Shown here: positions 38,663 through 47,485 of the stretch, piece by piece
Position numbering within the stretch: the stretch's first letter is position 1
How the letters are laid out: each line of letters starts with the position of its first letter
From: Candidatus Bathyarchaeota archaeon
GTDB taxonomy: Archaea > Thermoproteota > Bathyarchaeia > Bathyarchaeales > Bathycorpusculaceae
DNA: 64,000 nt
Direction of reading: 5' to 3'
Assembly: GCA_018396675.1 (NCBI GenBank)
Contig: JAGTQX010000003.1
Location: 248,001 to 312,000, forward strand
The notes under the pieces: model-generated
The model's database searches: none
What the model was told of the DNA's origin: nothing
Seen by the model: only the letters and a program-made list of their open reading frames with translations
Translations under genes and position numbers: made by a program

Positions 38663-40765
38663 TTGAAGAAAAAAGCACTTGTAACCGCGTTAATAGTTTT
38701 GTTAACTCTAATGGTTTTCTCGCAGATAATTTCTTTAAATGTAAACGCTATAGACGTGAAAATAACTTCTATTTCACCTTCCACGCGAACTGGAAAAGTT
38801 GGAGATAACGTGACAATTGTTGGAACAATAAACACGACAAACGGAGCATATCATGTTTGGTTTGGCAGTGAACTAATTGTAAATGGAACTGCTTCGGAAA
38901 ATGATGTGAACTGTTCATTCATGGTCCCAACGCTTCCAAATGGAAACTACACGATAACTCTGCAAGACATCACTGCAAACGCTAATGCCACATCATGGTT
39001 CTTGATACAAACCGCCTATTACATTAAGGTAACTGAAATCACAGACTTTGGACAACTCCAAGAAGGAGAAACCGTCAACATTTCAATAAGCATAACCGGA
39101 GGAGAAGCCAATACGGTTTACAAGGCAAATGTAACAGTTGAAACGCCGAACGCTAGCGAGACATACTCGAAAATTGTTTCATTAACAAACACGACAGACA
39201 CCGGCATAGCAAATGCGACATTAATGTATCCAAGTGATTTCGGAAACGACGCACATACGAATTACACCGGAACATATACTGTTTACTTTAACAGTACTCT
39301 GTCATCACAAACATTTTTTGTAGGAATAACAGATCTTAAGGAGTATCATAGAGGAGAGCAGATAAGGATAAGAGCAGTTGGCTATTCAGAATTCACGAAC
39401 GTAAACATAACAGTAAAATCTGGAAACAACATCATTGACGAATTTTCCGTCAACGTTACAGACGGAATTGTCACCGCAAACTGGACTGTGCCGAACAGTG
39501 TAACTGTTGGAAACTACAGTTTAAGCATCACTCCAGTTCCAACGTCGAAAAAAGTCAATGACACACAGACATTTGAGGTTCCAGGATTTAAAGCTATGAT
39601 TTTTCCACGCAACCTTGCCAGCGAGATAGTCTCCAATGTTCTTTTAAAGATTTATGATAAAGAAGCAAACCAGACTTACGAAATCACAAGCGAAAATGGG
39701 ACCGCAAAAATTCAGCTCGAAACTGGGGAATATAATTCCACAGCCTACTTCAAGAAAGTTAAGGTTGGGGAAATTCCAACGTTCAATGTGACTGGAGAAT
39801 TGGAGTTAAACATCACTTGCCAACTTACAAACTTGAAAATAACTGTAGTTAGCGAACAGAATGCTGTTTTAAAAATTCCATTTGCGTCTTTAAACGTGAC
39901 CTACGCATATACTACAGAATTGAATGGCGAAGAAAACAAGAACGAAACTACCAGTGCACAAACAGACATTACTGGAACCGCCATGTTAAGTTCTTTTCTC
40001 TTAAACGCTTCTTACACTGTGAACGCTTCCCGCTACGGCCAAGTTTTTAACCAAAACAATAACACTTTATCCAGTTTGGAACCGCTTGCATGGAATGACA
40101 TAGTGATAATGTGTCCAGAGAAAACACTATATGTAAACGTTATAGACGCAAACAGTCAACCAATAGCAAACGCGAAAGTGGAAGCTACAGAGCTTATGGG
40201 CGGCTTACGTTATTCGGATTACACAACACAAAATGGAAACGTAACATTAAACTGCATCATCGGAGTTTACCGTGTTAAAGTTTATTATAACGGAGTATTT
40301 TTGAATGAAGGAACAGTTGAATTATTTGACGAAAACACAACGACAATACGCTGCAGTCTTTACAACTTGCCAATATTCATTAAGGTAGTTGACTATTTCG
40401 GCCAACCTATTCCAAAAGTAAATGTCGTTTTAGAAAGAAACGGAGTTCAAATTGGTTCGAAGCTCACAGAAGCAGACGGCATAGCAGAGTTCACGGAAAT
40501 TGGAGGAGAACTGACAATAAAAGTTTATTTAGCAAACCAAGATCAGCCAATAGCAGCCTTCAAATGTTCCATTCTTGAAGCTAGAAACGAAGCGAACCCG
40601 CTAACGGTTAAAATCGGAAGTTACATTGTTTTAGCGGGCTTTTTAGTTGAAACCGCTCAATTTACAACAATTATTTTGATTGTTGCCGCGCTAGTGCTTT
40701 TTGCCGTGATAGAAATTGTTAGAAGAAGACGTTTTAAAAAAGTGGAGACTGAAGCTGAAGCGTGA
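38663..40765 (+). CDS. Large exported surface protein with Ig-like repeats and C-terminal membrane anchor
   Basis: 700 aa with TTG start at 38663 and GGAG 11 nt upstream. Residues 1-30 are a signal peptide (KKKALVTALIVLLTLMVFSQ). The body is made of beta-sandwich domains rich in N-x-S/T sequons; the last two resemble carboxypeptidase-regulatory repeats (VIDANSQPIANAKVEATEL, VVDYFGQPIPKVNVVLERN). A helix at about 664-684 is followed by a basic tail RRRRFKK and 7 more residues. It is probably cell-surface anchored and heavily glycosylated. Whether the archaeosortase at 22299 processes it is unknown. Confidence 0.8.
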   Translation: MKKKALVTALIVLLTLMVFSQIISLNVNAIDVKITSISPSTRTGKVGDNVTIVGTINTTNGAYHVWFGSELIVNGTASENDVNCSFMVPTLPNGNYTITLQDITANANATSWFLIQTAYYIKVTEITDFGQLQEGETVNISISITGGEANTVYKANVTVETPNASETYSKIVSLTNTTDTGIANATLMYPSDFGNDAHTNYTGTYTVYFNSTLSSQTFFVGITDLKEYHRGEQIRIRAVGYSEFTNVNITVKSGNNIIDEFSVNVTDGIVTANWTVPNSVTVGNYSLSITPVPTSKKVNDTQTFEVPGFKAMIFPRNLASEIVSNVLLKIYDKEANQTYEITSENGTAKIQLETGEYNSTAYFKKVKVGEIPTFNVTGELELNITCQLTNLKITVVSEQNAVLKIPFASLNVTYAYTTELNGEENKNETTSAQTDITGTAMLSSFLLNASYTVNASRYGQVFNQNNNTLSSLEPLAWNDIVIMCPEKTLYVNVIDANSQPIANAKVEATELMGGLRYSDYTTQNGNVTLNCIIGVYRVKVYYNGVFLNEGTVELFDENTTTIRCSLYNLPIFIKVVDYFGQPIPKVNVVLERNGVQIGSKLTEADGIAEFTEIGGELTIKVYLANQDQPIAAFKCSILEARNEANPLTVKIGSYIVLAGFLVETAQFTTIILIVAALVLFAVIEIVRRRRFKKVETEAEA

Positions 40766-41473: not shown

Positions 41474-42322
41474 GTGAAGAAACTTAAAGAGATACTTTCA
41501 AAAACGCTTTCCCCGGAAGAAATATCCTACATTTACGGTTCCTATGACATTGTTGGGGATATAGCAATTATACGCGTGACCGAAAATTCGAAAAAATACA
41601 GCCAAAGAATAGCTGAAACCATAATGCGTGTTCATAAAAACGTTAAAACGGTGCTTGCACAAACAAGCCCTGTTCTTGGGGATTTCAGGCTTAGAAAGCT
41701 TGAACATTTGGCTGGCGAAAAGAAAACCGTAACAGTTCACAAGGAGTCCGGATGTTTGTTTACTGTTGATGTGGAAAAATGCTATTTTTCGCCTAGGCTT
41801 TTCTATGAAAGAAAGCGAATTGCAGAACTGGTTAAAAATAAAGAAACCATTGTGAACATGTTTGCTGGAGTAGGATGTTTCTCGATAGTTATTGCCAAGA
41901 ACTCAAATGTAAACAAAATTTACTCGATAGACTTGAATCCAACGGCCGTACAATACATGCAGGAAAACATTAGAATTAATAGGGTTTATGGAAAGGTGGT
42001 CGCGTTAGAAGGAGATGCAAAAGAAATAGTTCAGAAAAGTCTTTGCGCGATTGCAGATAGGGTTCTCATGCCATTACCAGAAAAAGCTTTAGAGTACTTG
42101 CCATACGCTTTAATCGCCTTAAAAAACAGCGGTGGTTGGATACATTACTATGCTTTTGAACATGCAACAAAAGAAGAAAATCCAATTGAAAAAGGCAAAG
42201 CGAAAGTTGCAGAAAGACTGGAAACCTTAAACACAAATTTCGAAATACAATTTGGACGCGTAGTCAGAGCAACCGGCCCAAACTGGTATCAAATTGTTTT
42301 AGACATCAGTGTTAAGAAATGA
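41474..42322 (+). CDS. trm5: tRNA (guanine37-N1)-methyltransferase Trm5-like
   Basis: 282 aa with GTG start at 41474. SAM-binding motif is NMFAGVGCFSIVIAK, acidic residue IYSIDLNP and catalytic-loop region RVLMPLPEKALEYL; the preceding block FSPRLFYERKRI is typical of Trm5/Trm5-like enzymes. The N-terminal D1 domain of the longest archaeal forms is absent. It makes m1G37, the substrate of Taw1 (36261-37220). Trm112 follows immediately. Confidence 0.88.
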   Translation: MKKLKEILSKTLSPEEISYIYGSYDIVGDIAIIRVTENSKKYSQRIAETIMRVHKNVKTVLAQTSPVLGDFRLRKLEHLAGEKKTVTVHKESGCLFTVDVEKCYFSPRLFYERKRIAELVKNKETIVNMFAGVGCFSIVIAKNSNVNKIYSIDLNPTAVQYMQENIRINRVYGKVVALEGDAKEIVQKSLCAIADRVLMPLPEKALEYLPYALIALKNSGGWIHYYAFEHATKEENPIEKGKAKVAERLETLNTNFEIQFGRVVRATGPNWYQIVLDISVKK

Positions 42323-42334
42323 TTGGGAAATTTA

Positions 42335-42350
42335 ATAAGCGCTTATATAT
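42335..42350 (+). promoter_or_regulatory. Palindrome overlapping a TATA element before trm112
   Basis: ATAAGCGCTTAT (42335-42346) is a perfect 12-bp palindrome that runs into TTATATAT (42343-42350). A start site about 25 nt on would fall next to the trm112 ATG, so trm112 may have its own nearly leaderless transcript although it also follows trm5 closely. Confidence 0.4.
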
Positions 42351-42373
42351 TCTATGTTAAAAGAGGAACATAT

Positions 42374-42646
42374 ATGAAGAGAAAGTTAATGGAGTTGCTT
42401 GCCTGCCCAATCGATAAGCACCACCCTCTAGAACTCTATGTTTTCGAGGAAAAAAGTGAGATAGTTGAAGGCATAATTGTGTGTCCAAAATGTTTACGTT
42501 GGTACCCGATTCGCGAAGAGATCCCGGAGATGCTTCCAGACGAATTGCGCAAGGAAAATGAGGACTTACCATTCTTAAAAAAATGGAAAGAGAAAATTCC
42601 GGAAAAAATTATTTTAGAAGGGAAACCTTTCAACCTTAAAAAGTAG
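42374..42646 (+). CDS. Trm112 family zinc-binding protein
   Basis: 90 aa from the ATG at 42374 (AAGAGG 8 nt upstream). Zinc-knuckle: LACPIDKHHPLEL and VCPKCLRWYPIREEIPEML, the signature of Trm112p, which activates several methyltransferases acting on tRNA and release factors. The adjacent Trm5-like gene suggests co-expression of methylation factors; Trm5 itself is not a known Trm112 client. Confidence 0.9.
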   Translation: MKRKLMELLACPIDKHHPLELYVFEEKSEIVEGIIVCPKCLRWYPIREEIPEMLPDELRKENEDLPFLKKWKEKIPEKIILEGKPFNLKK

Positions 42647-42651
42647 CACTT

Positions 42652-43602
42652 TTACATCAGCAGCTTAACAAGTTTGCCTGTTTTCGAAGATTTTAGTGCG
42701 GCCTCGGCGATTTTAAGAGCTTTTAAACCATCAACGCCAGTTACCAGTGGTTTTTCCTTCCCGAAAATACATCTTATGAAATGTTGAAGCTCAAGCTTAA
42801 GCGGTTCCTGCCATATTATCCTCGGTTGAACGGTTTCTTTTGCATCTTCTATTGTCAACTCCTGTGTGATGTAGTCAAGTTTTACTATGGCTTCGCTTCC
42901 GGTAACGATTAAAACCCGTGTTTTATACGGAGTCAACCAGTTGGATTCAATAAAAGCGTTTTTTCCCTTCTCAAACGTTAGCATAATGTGTGCATAATCT
43001 TCGAATTTTTTGTGTTTCATGTTGCCGGTTTTCGCATAAACAGCCACGGGATCGCTATTGAATAGGTATCGCATCATGTCTATGTCGTGGATTGCCAAGT
43101 CTTTTACGACGCCGACATCGCCTATTCGCTCTGGCCACTGAGAAACCCTTTTTGCAGTTGCACAGACAAGTTCGCCTATTTCCCTGTTTTCCACAGCCTT
43201 CTTGATGTACTGGATGCCCGGAATGAAGCGCATGAGAAAGCCGACAGTTAGGGTTAATCCTTCTTTTTCTGCTGTTTTGATTAAAACTTCTGCTTGCTTT
43301 GAGTTAGCCGCCATAGGTTTTTCAACTAGAACATGTTTTCCGGCTTTTAAAGCCTTTAAAGCCTCTTTTGCAAGCGACGTTGACCATGTGCAAATACTTA
43401 CAGCTTCAATGTCTCTTCTTTTTAGCATTCTCCCAATGTTCGTGTAGGCTTCGGCGCCGAATTGAGATGCGGTTTTCTTCGCTCTTTCAGCGTTAATGTC
43501 GCAGACGGCGACAAGCTTTGTTTCCTCTAACTCGTTGAAGACTCGCGCATGGTTTTTTCCCCAGAAACCAGTGCCAACAACGGCTACTCCGAGTTTACTC
43601 AT
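42652..43602 (-). CDS. Gfo/Idh/MocA oxidoreductase, WlbA-like
   Basis: 316 aa. NAD fold GVAVVGTGFWGKNHARVF; the catalytic EKP lysine is in VLVEKPMAAN and the histidine in DLAIHDIDMMRYL. This is the pattern of UDP-N-acetylglucosamine(uronate) 3-dehydrogenases. It overlaps the upstream dehydrogenase-like gene by 8 nt and ends the four-gene nucleotide-sugar unit 42652-47485. No matching aminotransferase (WlbC) is in the window. Confidence 0.83.
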   Translation of the reverse strand: MSKLGVAVVGTGFWGKNHARVFNELEETKLVAVCDINAERAKKTASQFGAEAYTNIGRMLKRRDIEAVSICTWSTSLAKEALKALKAGKHVLVEKPMAANSKQAEVLIKTAEKEGLTLTVGFLMRFIPGIQYIKKAVENREIGELVCATAKRVSQWPERIGDVGVVKDLAIHDIDMMRYLFNSDPVAVYAKTGNMKHKKFEDYAHIMLTFEKGKNAFIESNWLTPYKTRVLIVTGSEAIVKLDYITQELTIEDAKETVQPRIIWQEPLKLELQHFIRCIFGKEKPLVTGVDGLKALKIAEAALKSSKTGKLVKLLM

Positions 43603-44974
43603 TTTTCAACACTCCTCTTCCAAAGCCACGATATATGAAACCTTCTGCTTCAACCTTTGAAGGATCCAAAACTCCCTCAAAATCGACAAAACCAGTAGGC
43701 ATACGCGTTAAAAGTTTGATTCGCCTCAAATTCAGACGTTTAAACTGATCATGCCCTGTAAATATCACAATACAGTCGGCTCCCTCTACAGATTCAGCCA
43801 AACTTTTCTTAAAAATCGCCTTTTCCATCTCTGAAGGAGGTTTACCCAAAAAATATGGGTCGTAAAATGTTATTTTGGCACCCTTAAGCGAAAGATCCTT
43901 TTCAAGTTTTATGATACAGCTTTTAGGAACATCCATGGCATTTGGCGTTTGCGACACTCCAAGTATGGAGATTTTCGCTCTTCTCAAAGCTTTTCCACAA
44001 TTTTTAAGTACGTCTCGAATTAAGTTTAGTGCGTGTCGCGAAAATTCTTCATTTACATCTAACGCGGCAGTTGAAACTCGAAGTTTTACGTTCAAGTTTT
44101 CAGCTTCATTCAGCAACAACTGGCATTCGTCACAACCACTCTCACAAAACAATGTCTGCCGCCCTAATTCACTATCAACGGTAGCGCTAAAAAGATTTTG
44201 CACTGCCAAGTAATCTACGCCGGTTTTATCGCAGAAAACAGCGAATTCTCGAGCTAATGCTCGTTGAGTATATCTATGTACTGTTTCGAAGAGCACTGCA
44301 GCTTCTGCGGCTTTTAAGTTTAAAGTTTTAACAATTTCCGATTTCGTTATTGACCCCAAAATATTTGATGCAAAGTCTAAACTTTTTTTGTCAATCGCCG
44401 CAACAATCCGCTTGCATGAAGGTAATGTTTTCAATGTTTGTCTTTCCTGAAATGGAACTGGACTATACGCCAAATAGAAGCCCGTGCCAGCCTTTAATCC
44501 AGAAGCGTTCTCCAATACGTTTTTGAGAAACCCTTCGGTTGCGCCTATCCCAACGGTACTCACAATAAGGATTAATGTTTCTCTTCGCATGTTTGAACTT
44601 AGATTTTTCAACACTCGTTCTATGACCGAATAGTCAGCATCATTTCTTTTGTTAACGGTAGCTGGCACAGCAATCACCAGAACACCGCTTTGAGCTGCAA
44701 CAGCCTTGAAATCGTTTAAAGGTTTCAGTTTTCCGGTTTCCAAGTTTTTCCGGAGAAGAGGTTCTATTTCATGTTTCAAAAAGTTGGTTTTACCCTTCGA
44801 GATACGCTCTATTGCTGCTTGGTCAGTGTCGACACAAAATACTTTAAAACCAGCCTCTGCAAGCAAGCATGCGTGGAGAACACCAACACGGTTGCAGCCA
44901 ACTATGCCAATAGTGAGATTTCCAAAACGATTATTTTGCATTTCCAAAGTTTTCGTACATTCTGGCGATGCCAT
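43595..44974 (-). CDS. UDP-sugar 6-dehydrogenase-like protein with altered active site
   Basis: 459 aa with the three-part layout of the UDP-glucose/UDP-ManNAc dehydrogenase family: NAD domain (IGIVGCNRVGVLHACLLAEA), central helix, and C-terminal UDP-binding domain (FYDPYF, CIVIFTGHDQFK). The central helix reads AEAAVLFETVHRYTQRALARE, where active enzymes have Lys and Asn (AEAAKL...N). The catalytic GG-x-C-P-DP loop is replaced by CESGCDECQLLL. It may be catalytically inactive or use a different chemistry. It lies between the mutase and the Gfo/Idh/MocA gene. Confidence 0.78.
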   Translation of the reverse strand: MASPECTKTLEMQNNRFGNLTIGIVGCNRVGVLHACLLAEAGFKVFCVDTDQAAIERISKGKTNFLKHEIEPLLRKNLETGKLKPLNDFKAVAAQSGVLVIAVPATVNKRNDADYSVIERVLKNLSSNMRRETLILIVSTVGIGATEGFLKNVLENASGLKAGTGFYLAYSPVPFQERQTLKTLPSCKRIVAAIDKKSLDFASNILGSITKSEIVKTLNLKAAEAAVLFETVHRYTQRALAREFAVFCDKTGVDYLAVQNLFSATVDSELGRQTLFCESGCDECQLLLNEAENLNVKLRVSTAALDVNEEFSRHALNLIRDVLKNCGKALRRAKISILGVSQTPNAMDVPKSCIIKLEKDLSLKGAKITFYDPYFLGKPPSEMEKAIFKKSLAESVEGADCIVIFTGHDQFKRLNLRRIKLLTRMPTGFVDFEGVLDPSKVEAEGFIYRGFGRGVLKNE

Positions 44975-45006: not shown

Positions 45007-46389
45007 TTAGCTTTTTAGACCGCTGATTAGCCTTTTAAGTTTTAAACTGTATTCTTGAACGAGGTTACTTGCTCTTTCTTTTGTTTTGGCTTCTGCGTAA
45101 AGTCTGTAGATTGGTTCAGTTCCGCTTGGCCTCATTAAAATTGAGCTTTTGTCGTCGAACCATATTTTAACTCCGTCGATTGTGCTTACATTCAGCCCCT
45201 TCACTTGTTCAACAAGTTTTTTCAAGGCTTTATCTTTAAGCTCGCTTGGGCATTCCACACTACTCTTTTCAATGTGGTATTTGGGCAGTTGACCGAGCAG
45301 AGTGGAAAGGGACGCGTTTGTTTCAGCCATTATGCCTAAGATTAGGGCTGTTGCCATTGCTCCATCTCTAACCGCTTGATGCGGACCGTAGAAGATTCCG
45401 CCATTTTCTTCACCGCCAAGTTTTGCTTTCAGTTTTTTCATTGTTTGTGAAACTGTCACACTTCCAACTTTTGTCCAAACAATTTCTCCACCATAATCGT
45501 CCGCAATATCCTTAACAAGAGTTGAAGAACTAATCGGAGAGACTATTTTTTCACCGGGATTCTTAATCAAAAAATGTTTTTCGACAAGTGCAAATGTTTT
45601 GTCTCCCCAGTGAATTTCGCCTTTCTCATCTACAAATATTGAACGATCAGCGTCACCGTCAAAAGCGACACCCAAGTCTGCGCCAACAGCCCTAACAGTC
45701 AACGCTAAATTTGCGAGGTTTTCTGGGCGAGGTTCTGGTAGTCTTCCAGGAAAAGTTCCATCAATGTTCGCGTTTATTGTTGTAACTTTGCATCCCATGT
45801 CCCTGAGAAGTTTGGGTGCGGTGAGTGCCGCAACACTGTTTGCAGCGTCAACAACAACATGATAACGTTTGCGAATTATTTCAGATACATCAACATGTTT
45901 TTTGATGGCCTCTACATATTCGTCGATGATTCCGGTGAGCATCTGCAGGGTGCCTATCCTGTTCCATTCGGCATAGAGTATTTTTTTATCAAAAAAAATG
46001 TCTTCAATCGCTATTTCTTGTTCGCGTGAAATTTCTATGCCGTCATTCCAGACTACTTTTATTCCGTTGTATTCTGGCGGGTTGTGAGACGCTGTTATTA
46101 TTACCGCACCGTCTGTTTTGTGCTTCTTCACAGCGTATTGCAGTGTTGGTGTTGGCGCCATGCCAGGAAATAGGACATTGCAGCCTGTCGCTGTTAATCC
46201 GGCAATCACAGCCTTTGCAAGCATGGGACTGCTTATTCTTGCGTCGTAGCCAACTATTAGGGTTCCATGGTTAAAGTATGTTCCTATGGCGCTGCCGATG
46301 TCTGTCGCCATTTCTACGGTCAAATCCTTGTTGGTTACTCCTCGAATCCCGTTTGTTCCGAAAAGTCGTCTATTGCTTAACACACTCAT
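45007..46389 (-). CDS. glmM: Phosphoglucosamine mutase / phosphomannomutase, second copy
   Basis: 460 aa. Phosphohexomutase hallmarks: RLFGTNGIRGVTN, phosphoserine loop TASHNPP, metal loop DGDADR, substrate loop GGEENGG, and RPSGTEPIYRLY. It lies 13 nt after a GDP-mannose-pyrophosphorylase-like gene. The other mutase (1288-2652) pairs with a GlmU-like enzyme, so this copy may serve mannose- or glucose-1-P supply; the exact hexose is unclear. Confidence 0.87.
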   Translation of the reverse strand: MSVLSNRRLFGTNGIRGVTNKDLTVEMATDIGSAIGTYFNHGTLIVGYDARISSPMLAKAVIAGLTATGCNVLFPGMAPTPTLQYAVKKHKTDGAVIITASHNPPEYNGIKVVWNDGIEISREQEIAIEDIFFDKKILYAEWNRIGTLQMLTGIIDEYVEAIKKHVDVSEIIRKRYHVVVDAANSVAALTAPKLLRDMGCKVTTINANIDGTFPGRLPEPRPENLANLALTVRAVGADLGVAFDGDADRSIFVDEKGEIHWGDKTFALVEKHFLIKNPGEKIVSPISSSTLVKDIADDYGGEIVWTKVGSVTVSQTMKKLKAKLGGEENGGIFYGPHQAVRDGAMATALILGIMAETNASLSTLLGQLPKYHIEKSSVECPSELKDKALKKLVEQVKGLNVSTIDGVKIWFDDKSSILMRPSGTEPIYRLYAEAKTKERASNLVQEYSLKLKRLISGLKS

Positions 46390-46402: not shown

Positions 46403-47485
46403 TCACATAACGCATCTTGATGCTGTTATATTTTCAGAAACTTCTTTTGCTGGACAGACTGAAACGCCTTTCGCTAAAAAGATATTATCACGTATAACTG
46501 CGTAATCACCTATCACACAGTTTTCTTCAATTTTAACATTTTTGCCTATTACTGCCTTTTCGCCGATTACAACTCCGCTAATTGAAGCATAATCAGCTAT
46601 GGAAGCTTCAGGAAATATCACAGAATTTTCTACATGCACGTGTTTTCCAATTTTGACATTCCGTCCCAAAACCACATGAGGACCAATAATTGAAAATTTG
46701 CCAATATGTGGACGGCCTTCAATAATTACGGGTTCCCTGATGTTTTCGTTGCTACCTACAATTTTTTTCTCAAAAAAATGTGAATCAAGCAAAACGCGGT
46801 TTAGCTTCAGATAGTCTTCCACTCTGCCTATGTCAGTCCATAAACCACTAAAAACATAGCCGTAAAGTCCACCCTCTTCAGCAAGCCTCGTAAAAATTTC
46901 TCTCTCCATGGAGACCTTTCGTCCTTTCGGGATATACCTAAAAATTTCAGGACTTAAAACATAAACCCCAGCATTTATCAAATTTGTCGGTGCTTTTCCT
47001 AGAGGCGGTTTCTCGATGAATTTTTTGATTCGTCCGTTTTCTGTGAGTTCTGCAACTCCGAACCTGCTTGGGTCATCAACTCTGCAGAGAGCTATCGTCG
47101 CAACAGCTTTTTTCTCCTTATGGAATTTTGCGATTTCAGAGTAATCCAAGCTCGTGAAGATGTCACCATTGACAACAAGAAAGTCTTCGGCGCCAATGAA
47201 CTTTTCAGCTTTTTTGACTGGTCCGCCGGTTCCCAACGGTTTCTTGGGCGGGTCACATGAATAAACAATTTTGAGTTCGCCAGCATCAACATTGAAACTT
47301 TTTATTTGAAAGCGTGTTTGACGGCTGACAGCCATTATAATATATTTTACGCCGCTTTTCGCGAGTTTTTCGAAAGTCCACTGCAACAGAGGCTTGTTAA
47401 GTATTGGAAATAGGCTTTTAGGTCTTGTACAGCTCAGTGGTCTGAGCCTTGTTCCGAATCCTCCGGCAAGAATTACTGCCTTCAA
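46403..47485 (-). CDS. Sugar-1-phosphate nucleotidylyltransferase, GDP-mannose pyrophosphorylase-like
   Basis: 360 aa. The N-terminal domain starts MKAVILAGGFGTRLRPLSCT and RPK; VVNGDIFTSLD and FIEKPPLG follow. The C-terminal left-handed beta-helix of hexapeptide repeats is about 105 residues. This is the MPG1-type layout, used for mannose- or glucose-1-P. First gene of the four-gene nucleotide-sugar unit. Confidence 0.85.
   Translation of the reverse strand: MKAVILAGGFGTRLRPLSCTRPKSLFPILNKPLLQWTFEKLAKSGVKYIIMAVSRQTRFQIKSFNVDAGELKIVYSCDPPKKPLGTGGPVKKAEKFIGAEDFLVVNGDIFTSLDYSEIAKFHKEKKAVATIALCRVDDPSRFGVAELTENGRIKKFIEKPPLGKAPTNLINAGVYVLSPEIFRYIPKGRKVSMEREIFTRLAEEGGLYGYVFSGLWTDIGRVEDYLKLNRVLLDSHFFEKKIVGSNENIREPVIIEGRPHIGKFSIIGPHVVLGRNVKIGKHVHVENSVIFPEASIADYASISGVVIGEKAVIGKNVKIEENCVIGDYAVIRDNIFLAKGVSVCPAKEVSENITASRCVM

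Follow-up and report, generated by a model that had tools for sequence, protein, structure and literature searches.

A degenerate nucleotide-sugar dehydrogenase homologue, predicted to be a pseudoenzyme, encoded beside a Gfo/Idh/MocA oxidoreductase in Bathyarchaeia

What might a dehydrogenase homologue still do for its host when the residues with which its relatives carry out catalysis have been replaced? This question is raised by an open reading frame (ORF) within a 64,000-nt stretch of a Candidatus Bathyarchaeota archaeon contig (JAGTQX010000003.1, positions 248,001 to 312,000; referred to as the window), encoding a protein that resembles NDP-sugar dehydrogenases (NSDHs). The original prediction held that Val and Thr take the place of the catalytic Lys and Asn in the central helix and that the Cys loop is rewritten, and proposed either a pseudo-enzyme partner of the neighboring Gfo/Idh/MocA oxidoreductase (Gfo) or new chemistry. 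It named structure prediction as a check, and an alignment with shifted but functional Lys, Asn and Cys residues as the result that would speak against it. The locus reads as follows:

42652..43602, minus strand: Gfo/Idh/MocA oxidoreductase, EKP and DxxxHxxD motifs intact, overlapping the NSDH-like ORF by 8 nt
43595..44974, minus strand: degenerate NSDH homologue and predicted pseudoenzyme, 459 aa, ATG start
45007..46389, minus strand: archaeal phosphoglucosamine mutase GlmM, above its NCBIfam cut-off
46403..47485, minus strand: sugar-1-phosphate nucleotidyltransferase with a hexapeptide-repeat (left-handed beta-helix) tail, from domain matches

The affiliation of the window protein was clear. 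Pfam recognized the N-terminal Rossmann domain for NAD (PF03721, E=2e-28) and the C-terminal domain for UDP (PF03720, E=4e-15), the central domain (PF00984) reaching 21.8 bits, i.e., below its cut-off of 25.4. The nucleotide sugar dehydrogenase model TIGR03026 gave 223.6 bits, above its cut-off of 189.8. All NCBIfam equivalog models for NSDHs scored the protein far under their cut-offs, including the one for archaeal UDP-N-acetylmannosamine dehydrogenase (NF040825; 168 bits vs. a cut-off of 750). An AlphaFold2 model built from a 40-sequence alignment displayed a three-domain fold (mean pLDDT 89.3, pTM 0.85), with low confidence in the N-terminal tail, the former Cys loop and the extreme C-terminus. 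When this model was submitted to Foldseek, the best PDB matches were all NSDHs, headed by the UDP-ManNAc dehydrogenase of Pyrococcus horikoshii (4r16; TM 0.91 by target length, 27% identity). By ancestry and fold, the protein is a member of the NDP-sugar dehydrogenase superfamily, and the structure prediction proposed at the outset thus returned a fold that is predicted to be intact.

In NSDHs, Lys204 and Asn208 position the substrate for hydride transfer, Cys260 is the covalent nucleophile, Asp264 the general base and Lys320 the diphosphate Lys. As the reference for an active enzyme we took the 18 residues that are invariant across 229 NSDHs (PMC4794789), against which the window protein was scored after alignment with canonical paralogues. 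Seven are left (G7, G12, S117, T118, P140, E201 and N287) and 11 are gone (G9, T83, E141, K204, N208, N219, G257, G258, C260, D264 and K320). Specifically, Lys204 and Asn208 are replaced by V227 and T231, as originally predicted, Glu141 by V173, Lys320 by T343, Asn219 by R242, Gly9 by N28 and Thr83 by A105. The Cys loop proved to be rewritten as well, Gly257 and Gly258 aligning with C277 and E278, Cys260 with a gap and Asp264 with E283, and the Cys260 nucleophile of the GGxC loop is missing from the window protein and from the members of its family examined. The NAD site departs from the canonical pattern, its GxGxxG reading G26, N28 and G31 and its Thr83 being A105. The segments concerned are:

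44882..44908, minus strand: Rossmann loop GIVGCNRVG (aa 23-31), with Asn28 for the middle Gly of GxGxxG, from sequence and alignment
44444..44470, minus strand: AYSPVPFQE (aa 169-177), Pro140 present and Glu141 replaced by Val173, from sequence and alignment
44270..44308, minus strand: central helix AEAAVLFETVHRY (aa 223-235), Glu201 present, Lys204 replaced by Val227 and Asn208 by Thr231, from sequence and alignment
44111..44146, minus strand: rewritten Cys loop CESGCDECQLLL (aa 277-288) without the catalytic Cys260, from alignment and model

In the AlphaFold2 model, the Cys-loop region was modeled poorly (blocks 261-280, mean pLDDT 63-69). The Cys residues of its CESGCDEC stretch are absent in relatives, except for a Cys near position 277 in one sub-branch, and judging from the alignment they are not a clade-wide substitute for Cys260. 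A shifted but functional Lys, Asn or Cys, the finding that would have spoken against the original prediction, was searched for by alignment of the window protein with relatives and canonical paralogues, and none was found. Tested against the features that define an active NDP-sugar dehydrogenase, the protein fails by its residues, and the labels UDP-glucose or UDP-ManNAc dehydrogenase should not be given to it on such a predicted active site.

A homologue was present in 57 of the 61 genomes of relatives searched. Across the class, which named records identify as Bathyarchaeia, an NSDH-type match (alignment model, E≤0.001, canonical paralogues counted in) was obtained in 219 of 251 genomes, and in 111 of 120 when high-quality genomes were considered. 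The orthologous NSDH-like clade spans Bathyarchaeia and a few neighboring lineages; similar proteins, some with and some without the Cys and left off the tree described below, occur in a few genomes that belong to the phylum but not to the class.

This maximum-likelihood tree comprised 114 sequences (from a short search, with SH-aLRT as the sole measure of support and many forks unresolved) and placed the window protein in a clade of 85 sequences with a support of 99, all of which have lost Glu141. Loss of the active site was graded. In canonical paralogues, 16-18 of the invariant residues are present; sister orders retain Cys and Lys, with Asp264 changed to Asn or Tyr and Asn208 often missing; basal members of the window's order retain Lys, Asn and Asp while the Cys is gone (GGHIPKD for GGHCLPKD); and just 5-9 of the 18 remain in the window's family. 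The fewest changes required on the tree were 2 for Glu141, 3 for Cys260, 6 for Lys204, 8 for Asp264, 9 for Asn208 and 10 for Lys320, which are most naturally read as losses given the canonical outgroups, parsimony alone being unable to separate gain from loss. Since the same class of losses is found family-wide in independent genomes, those in the window protein are not a matter of chance.

In genomes of family f24 that encode a canonical NSDH (18 of 18 residues), a further copy that abuts Gfo has just 3-4 of them left. These extremely degenerate second copies (L228:8350-9660, L229:5118-6374, L234:7358-8503 and L235:1204-2460) share about 27% identity with relatives, and the one scanned (L228) was not recognized by Pfam; at L228 and L234 its ORF and the Gfo gene share 4 nt, with a canonical NSDH nearby. 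Elsewhere in the class, an NSDH-like gene (L233:10887-12869, genome G062) carries an intein at the catalytic Cys of its GGHC loop (Pfam Intein_splicing, E=9e-11), resulting in an ORF of 660 aa. In a separate group from the same phylum (L205, L207 and L249-L254), Glu141, Lys204 and Cys260 are retained, but Gly stands at Asn208, Tyr at Asp264 and, except in L252, Arg at Lys320; judging by these residues, the group may represent another NSDH variant whose chemistry has changed.

The NSDH-like gene is under purifying selection. Six pairs of sequences within the window's family gave NG86 dN/dS values of about 0.09, 0.17, 0.17, 0.19, 0.19 and 0.23, although in nearly all of these pairs the constraint was looser than on Gfo and GlmM. 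It also evolves faster, the median identity to the window within the family being 46% for the NSDH-like protein vs. 78% for Gfo. With a catalytic motif lost throughout a conserved clade under purifying selection, the protein qualifies as a predicted pseudoenzyme. This part of the original prediction is strongly supported by the graded loss of catalytic residues across the class, the intact predicted fold and the selection regime.

Its putative role has to be sought in its gene context. Most loci in the window's family repeat the order nucleotidyltransferase, GlmM, NSDH-like and Gfo. Of the 116 genomes for which matches to both NSDH-like and Gfo were listed, 110 have Gfo as the next gene downstream, on the same strand. 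Overlap between the two ORFs was seen in 40 of the 45 loci examined and mostly measured 4, 8 or 13 nt, compared to gaps of mostly 20-60 nt between GlmM and the NSDH-like gene. The top NCBIfam match of the window Gfo was UDP-GlcNAc 3-dehydrogenase (NF040723), yet its 324 bits stay below the cut-off of 450, so that this best model does not establish the substrate. Loci without Gfo often contain a PF00953 GT4 (GlcNAc-1-P-transferase type), and sister-order loci carry GT4 and DUF354. Because of the best match of Gfo and the GT4 and DUF354 at these other loci, the locus points to a role in UDP-GlcNAc and lipid-linked glycan synthesis.

The partner half of the original prediction fared less evenly, since it draws on gene context only. 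Adjacency and overlap speak for it, as does the degenerate second copy beside Gfo in family f24; against it stand the faster evolution of the NSDH-like protein compared to Gfo and near-complete genomes that have the NSDH-like protein but no Gfo match at 1e-40 (G041, G054, G056, G060 and G040), and distance-matrix covariation yielded no specific signal between NSDH-like protein and Gfo (partial r 0.09, vs. 0.6 for Gfo and GlmM). Fusions of the two were absent among the matches listed.

Other genes around the operon were also recorded. Beside it, at 41474-42646, a gene for a TRM5/TYW2-type methyltransferase adjoins one for a Trm112-like zinc protein, and the two stay paired at this place across the window's order. 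A predicted secreted, membrane-anchored protein of 700 aa is encoded at 38663-40765; family members share 36-61% identity and the position near the locus is conserved. A DegT-type aminotransferase of the same genome (best NCBIfam match PseC, below cut-off) was considered as the downstream 3-keto-sugar enzyme and rejected, being unlinked to the NSDH-like locus.

The explanation we favor, to which we assign an about even chance, is that of a non-catalytic scaffold or regulatory pseudoenzyme of a UDP-GlcNAc/lipid-linked-glycan locus, most likely acting with Gfo. Its ancestor would have been a WbpA-like 6-dehydrogenase acting just before a WbpB-like Gfo 3-dehydrogenase. Once C6 oxidation was no longer needed by the pathway, the protein may have been retained as a subunit without catalytic function, probably homo-oligomeric, by which the adjacent UDP-GlcNAc-handling enzymes, most likely the Gfo of the overlapping gene, are scaffolded, stabilized or regulated. 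The product probably enters a lipid-linked glycan. Its fold notwithstanding, the predicted pseudoenzyme would be unable to oxidize a UDP-sugar in the two NAD-dependent steps. That parallel lineages lost different catalytic residues while fold and operon stayed constant implies that the retained function needs no NSDH chemistry. A farther-reaching version, i.e., an obligate non-catalytic subunit of Gfo (or of a UDP-GlcNAc/lipid-linked-sugar complex) throughout the class, with the catalytic site dismantled independently in several lineages, is tentative and would sooner prove wrong than right. A role as prozyme for an active NSDH paralogue was rejected, as many genomes have no other NSDH match: none was found in the window's genome (88% complete) or in near-complete ones such as G022 (100% complete), where there is no NSDH to activate.

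The main rival to a Gfo partner is a ligand-binding sensor or regulator that would act on UDP-GlcNAc/lipid-linked glycan synthesis via GlmM or the GT4 GlcNAc-1-P-transferase, with Gfo a mere neighbor. In lineages without Gfo at the locus (L031, L044, L067, L112 and L114) the NSDH-like gene indeed adjoins a PF00953 GT4, the nucleotidyltransferase and GlmM are usually upstream, and within the window's family the conservation of Asp49, a residue of the NAD site, reaches 95%. Nevertheless, Gly9, Thr83 and Lys320 are largely lost in the family, which makes both canonical ligand sites look damaged, and adjacency to GT4 is far less constant than the overlap with Gfo. We consider this reading unlikely, albeit worth serious attention.

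Less likely still, and rather improbable, is an active enzyme that has recruited different residues in the old pocket. Positions that are strongly conserved in the window's family but unlike canonical NSDHs (including C27, R332, P350, E397, K440 and E442) would suit such an enzyme and suggest, as far as conservation can tell, new constraint instead of simple decay. However, the active-site loop, besides being poorly modeled, is among the least conserved parts within the family, and relatives differ freely in what replaces Lys204, Asn208 and the Cys loop. The new chemistry of the original prediction gained no positive support; it is least improbable for the sister orders, which keep Lys204 and Cys260 but have Glu141, Asp264 and often Asn208 altered.

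That the gene is a relic about to be lost, or a product of faulty assembly, as the fast evolution and a stop codon in a few copies could suggest, is very improbable: more than 100 genomes carry it, nearly all with an uninterrupted ORF, the dN/dS is about 0.09-0.23, the operon position is conserved and the predicted fold is intact. A normal UDP-sugar dehydrogenase with merely misaligned or shifted catalytic residues is hardly credible: C277, C281 and C284 do lie in or near the loop, but the helix motif positions hold neither Lys nor Asn, no Cys is clade-wide, and the alignment of GGHIPKD in basal relatives with GGHCLPKD is unambiguous.

To our knowledge, a pseudoenzyme derived from an NDP-sugar dehydrogenase has yet to be described, and searches of the available literature for an inactive NSDH or for this locus returned nothing relevant. 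Within the family, the active site can be seen at several degrees of dismantling, with 18, 16, 14, 7 and 3 of the 18 invariant residues left at constant fold and operon position, making it a natural series in which to ask what a dead dehydrogenase still does. Moreover, an annotation as 'UDP-glucose dehydrogenase' in Bathyarchaeia need not mean UDP-uronic acid synthesis.

Among known systems, the UDP-ManNAc dehydrogenase of P. horikoshii (PDB 4r16; NF040825) has in common with the window protein its three-domain fold and the C-terminal motif FRGxGRG/YRGxGRG, but the latter is without the catalytic and most of the ligand-binding residues. In bacterial O-antigen synthesis, WbpA and WbpB are a UDP-GlcNAc 6-dehydrogenase and the Gfo/Idh/MocA 3-dehydrogenase that follows it. 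There as in the window, an NSDH-fold gene adjoins that of a Gfo/Idh/MocA sugar 3-dehydrogenase homologue, although the first partner in the window is, unlike WbpA, predicted to be catalytically impaired. Finally, trypanosomatid deoxyhypusine synthase is reported to be activated by a catalytically dead paralogue (PMC3663545), i.e., a degenerate homologue is likewise retained beside an active enzyme; the partner there is the active paralogue, whereas many genomes with the NSDH-like protein have no active NSDH paralogue, and its partner would most likely be Gfo.
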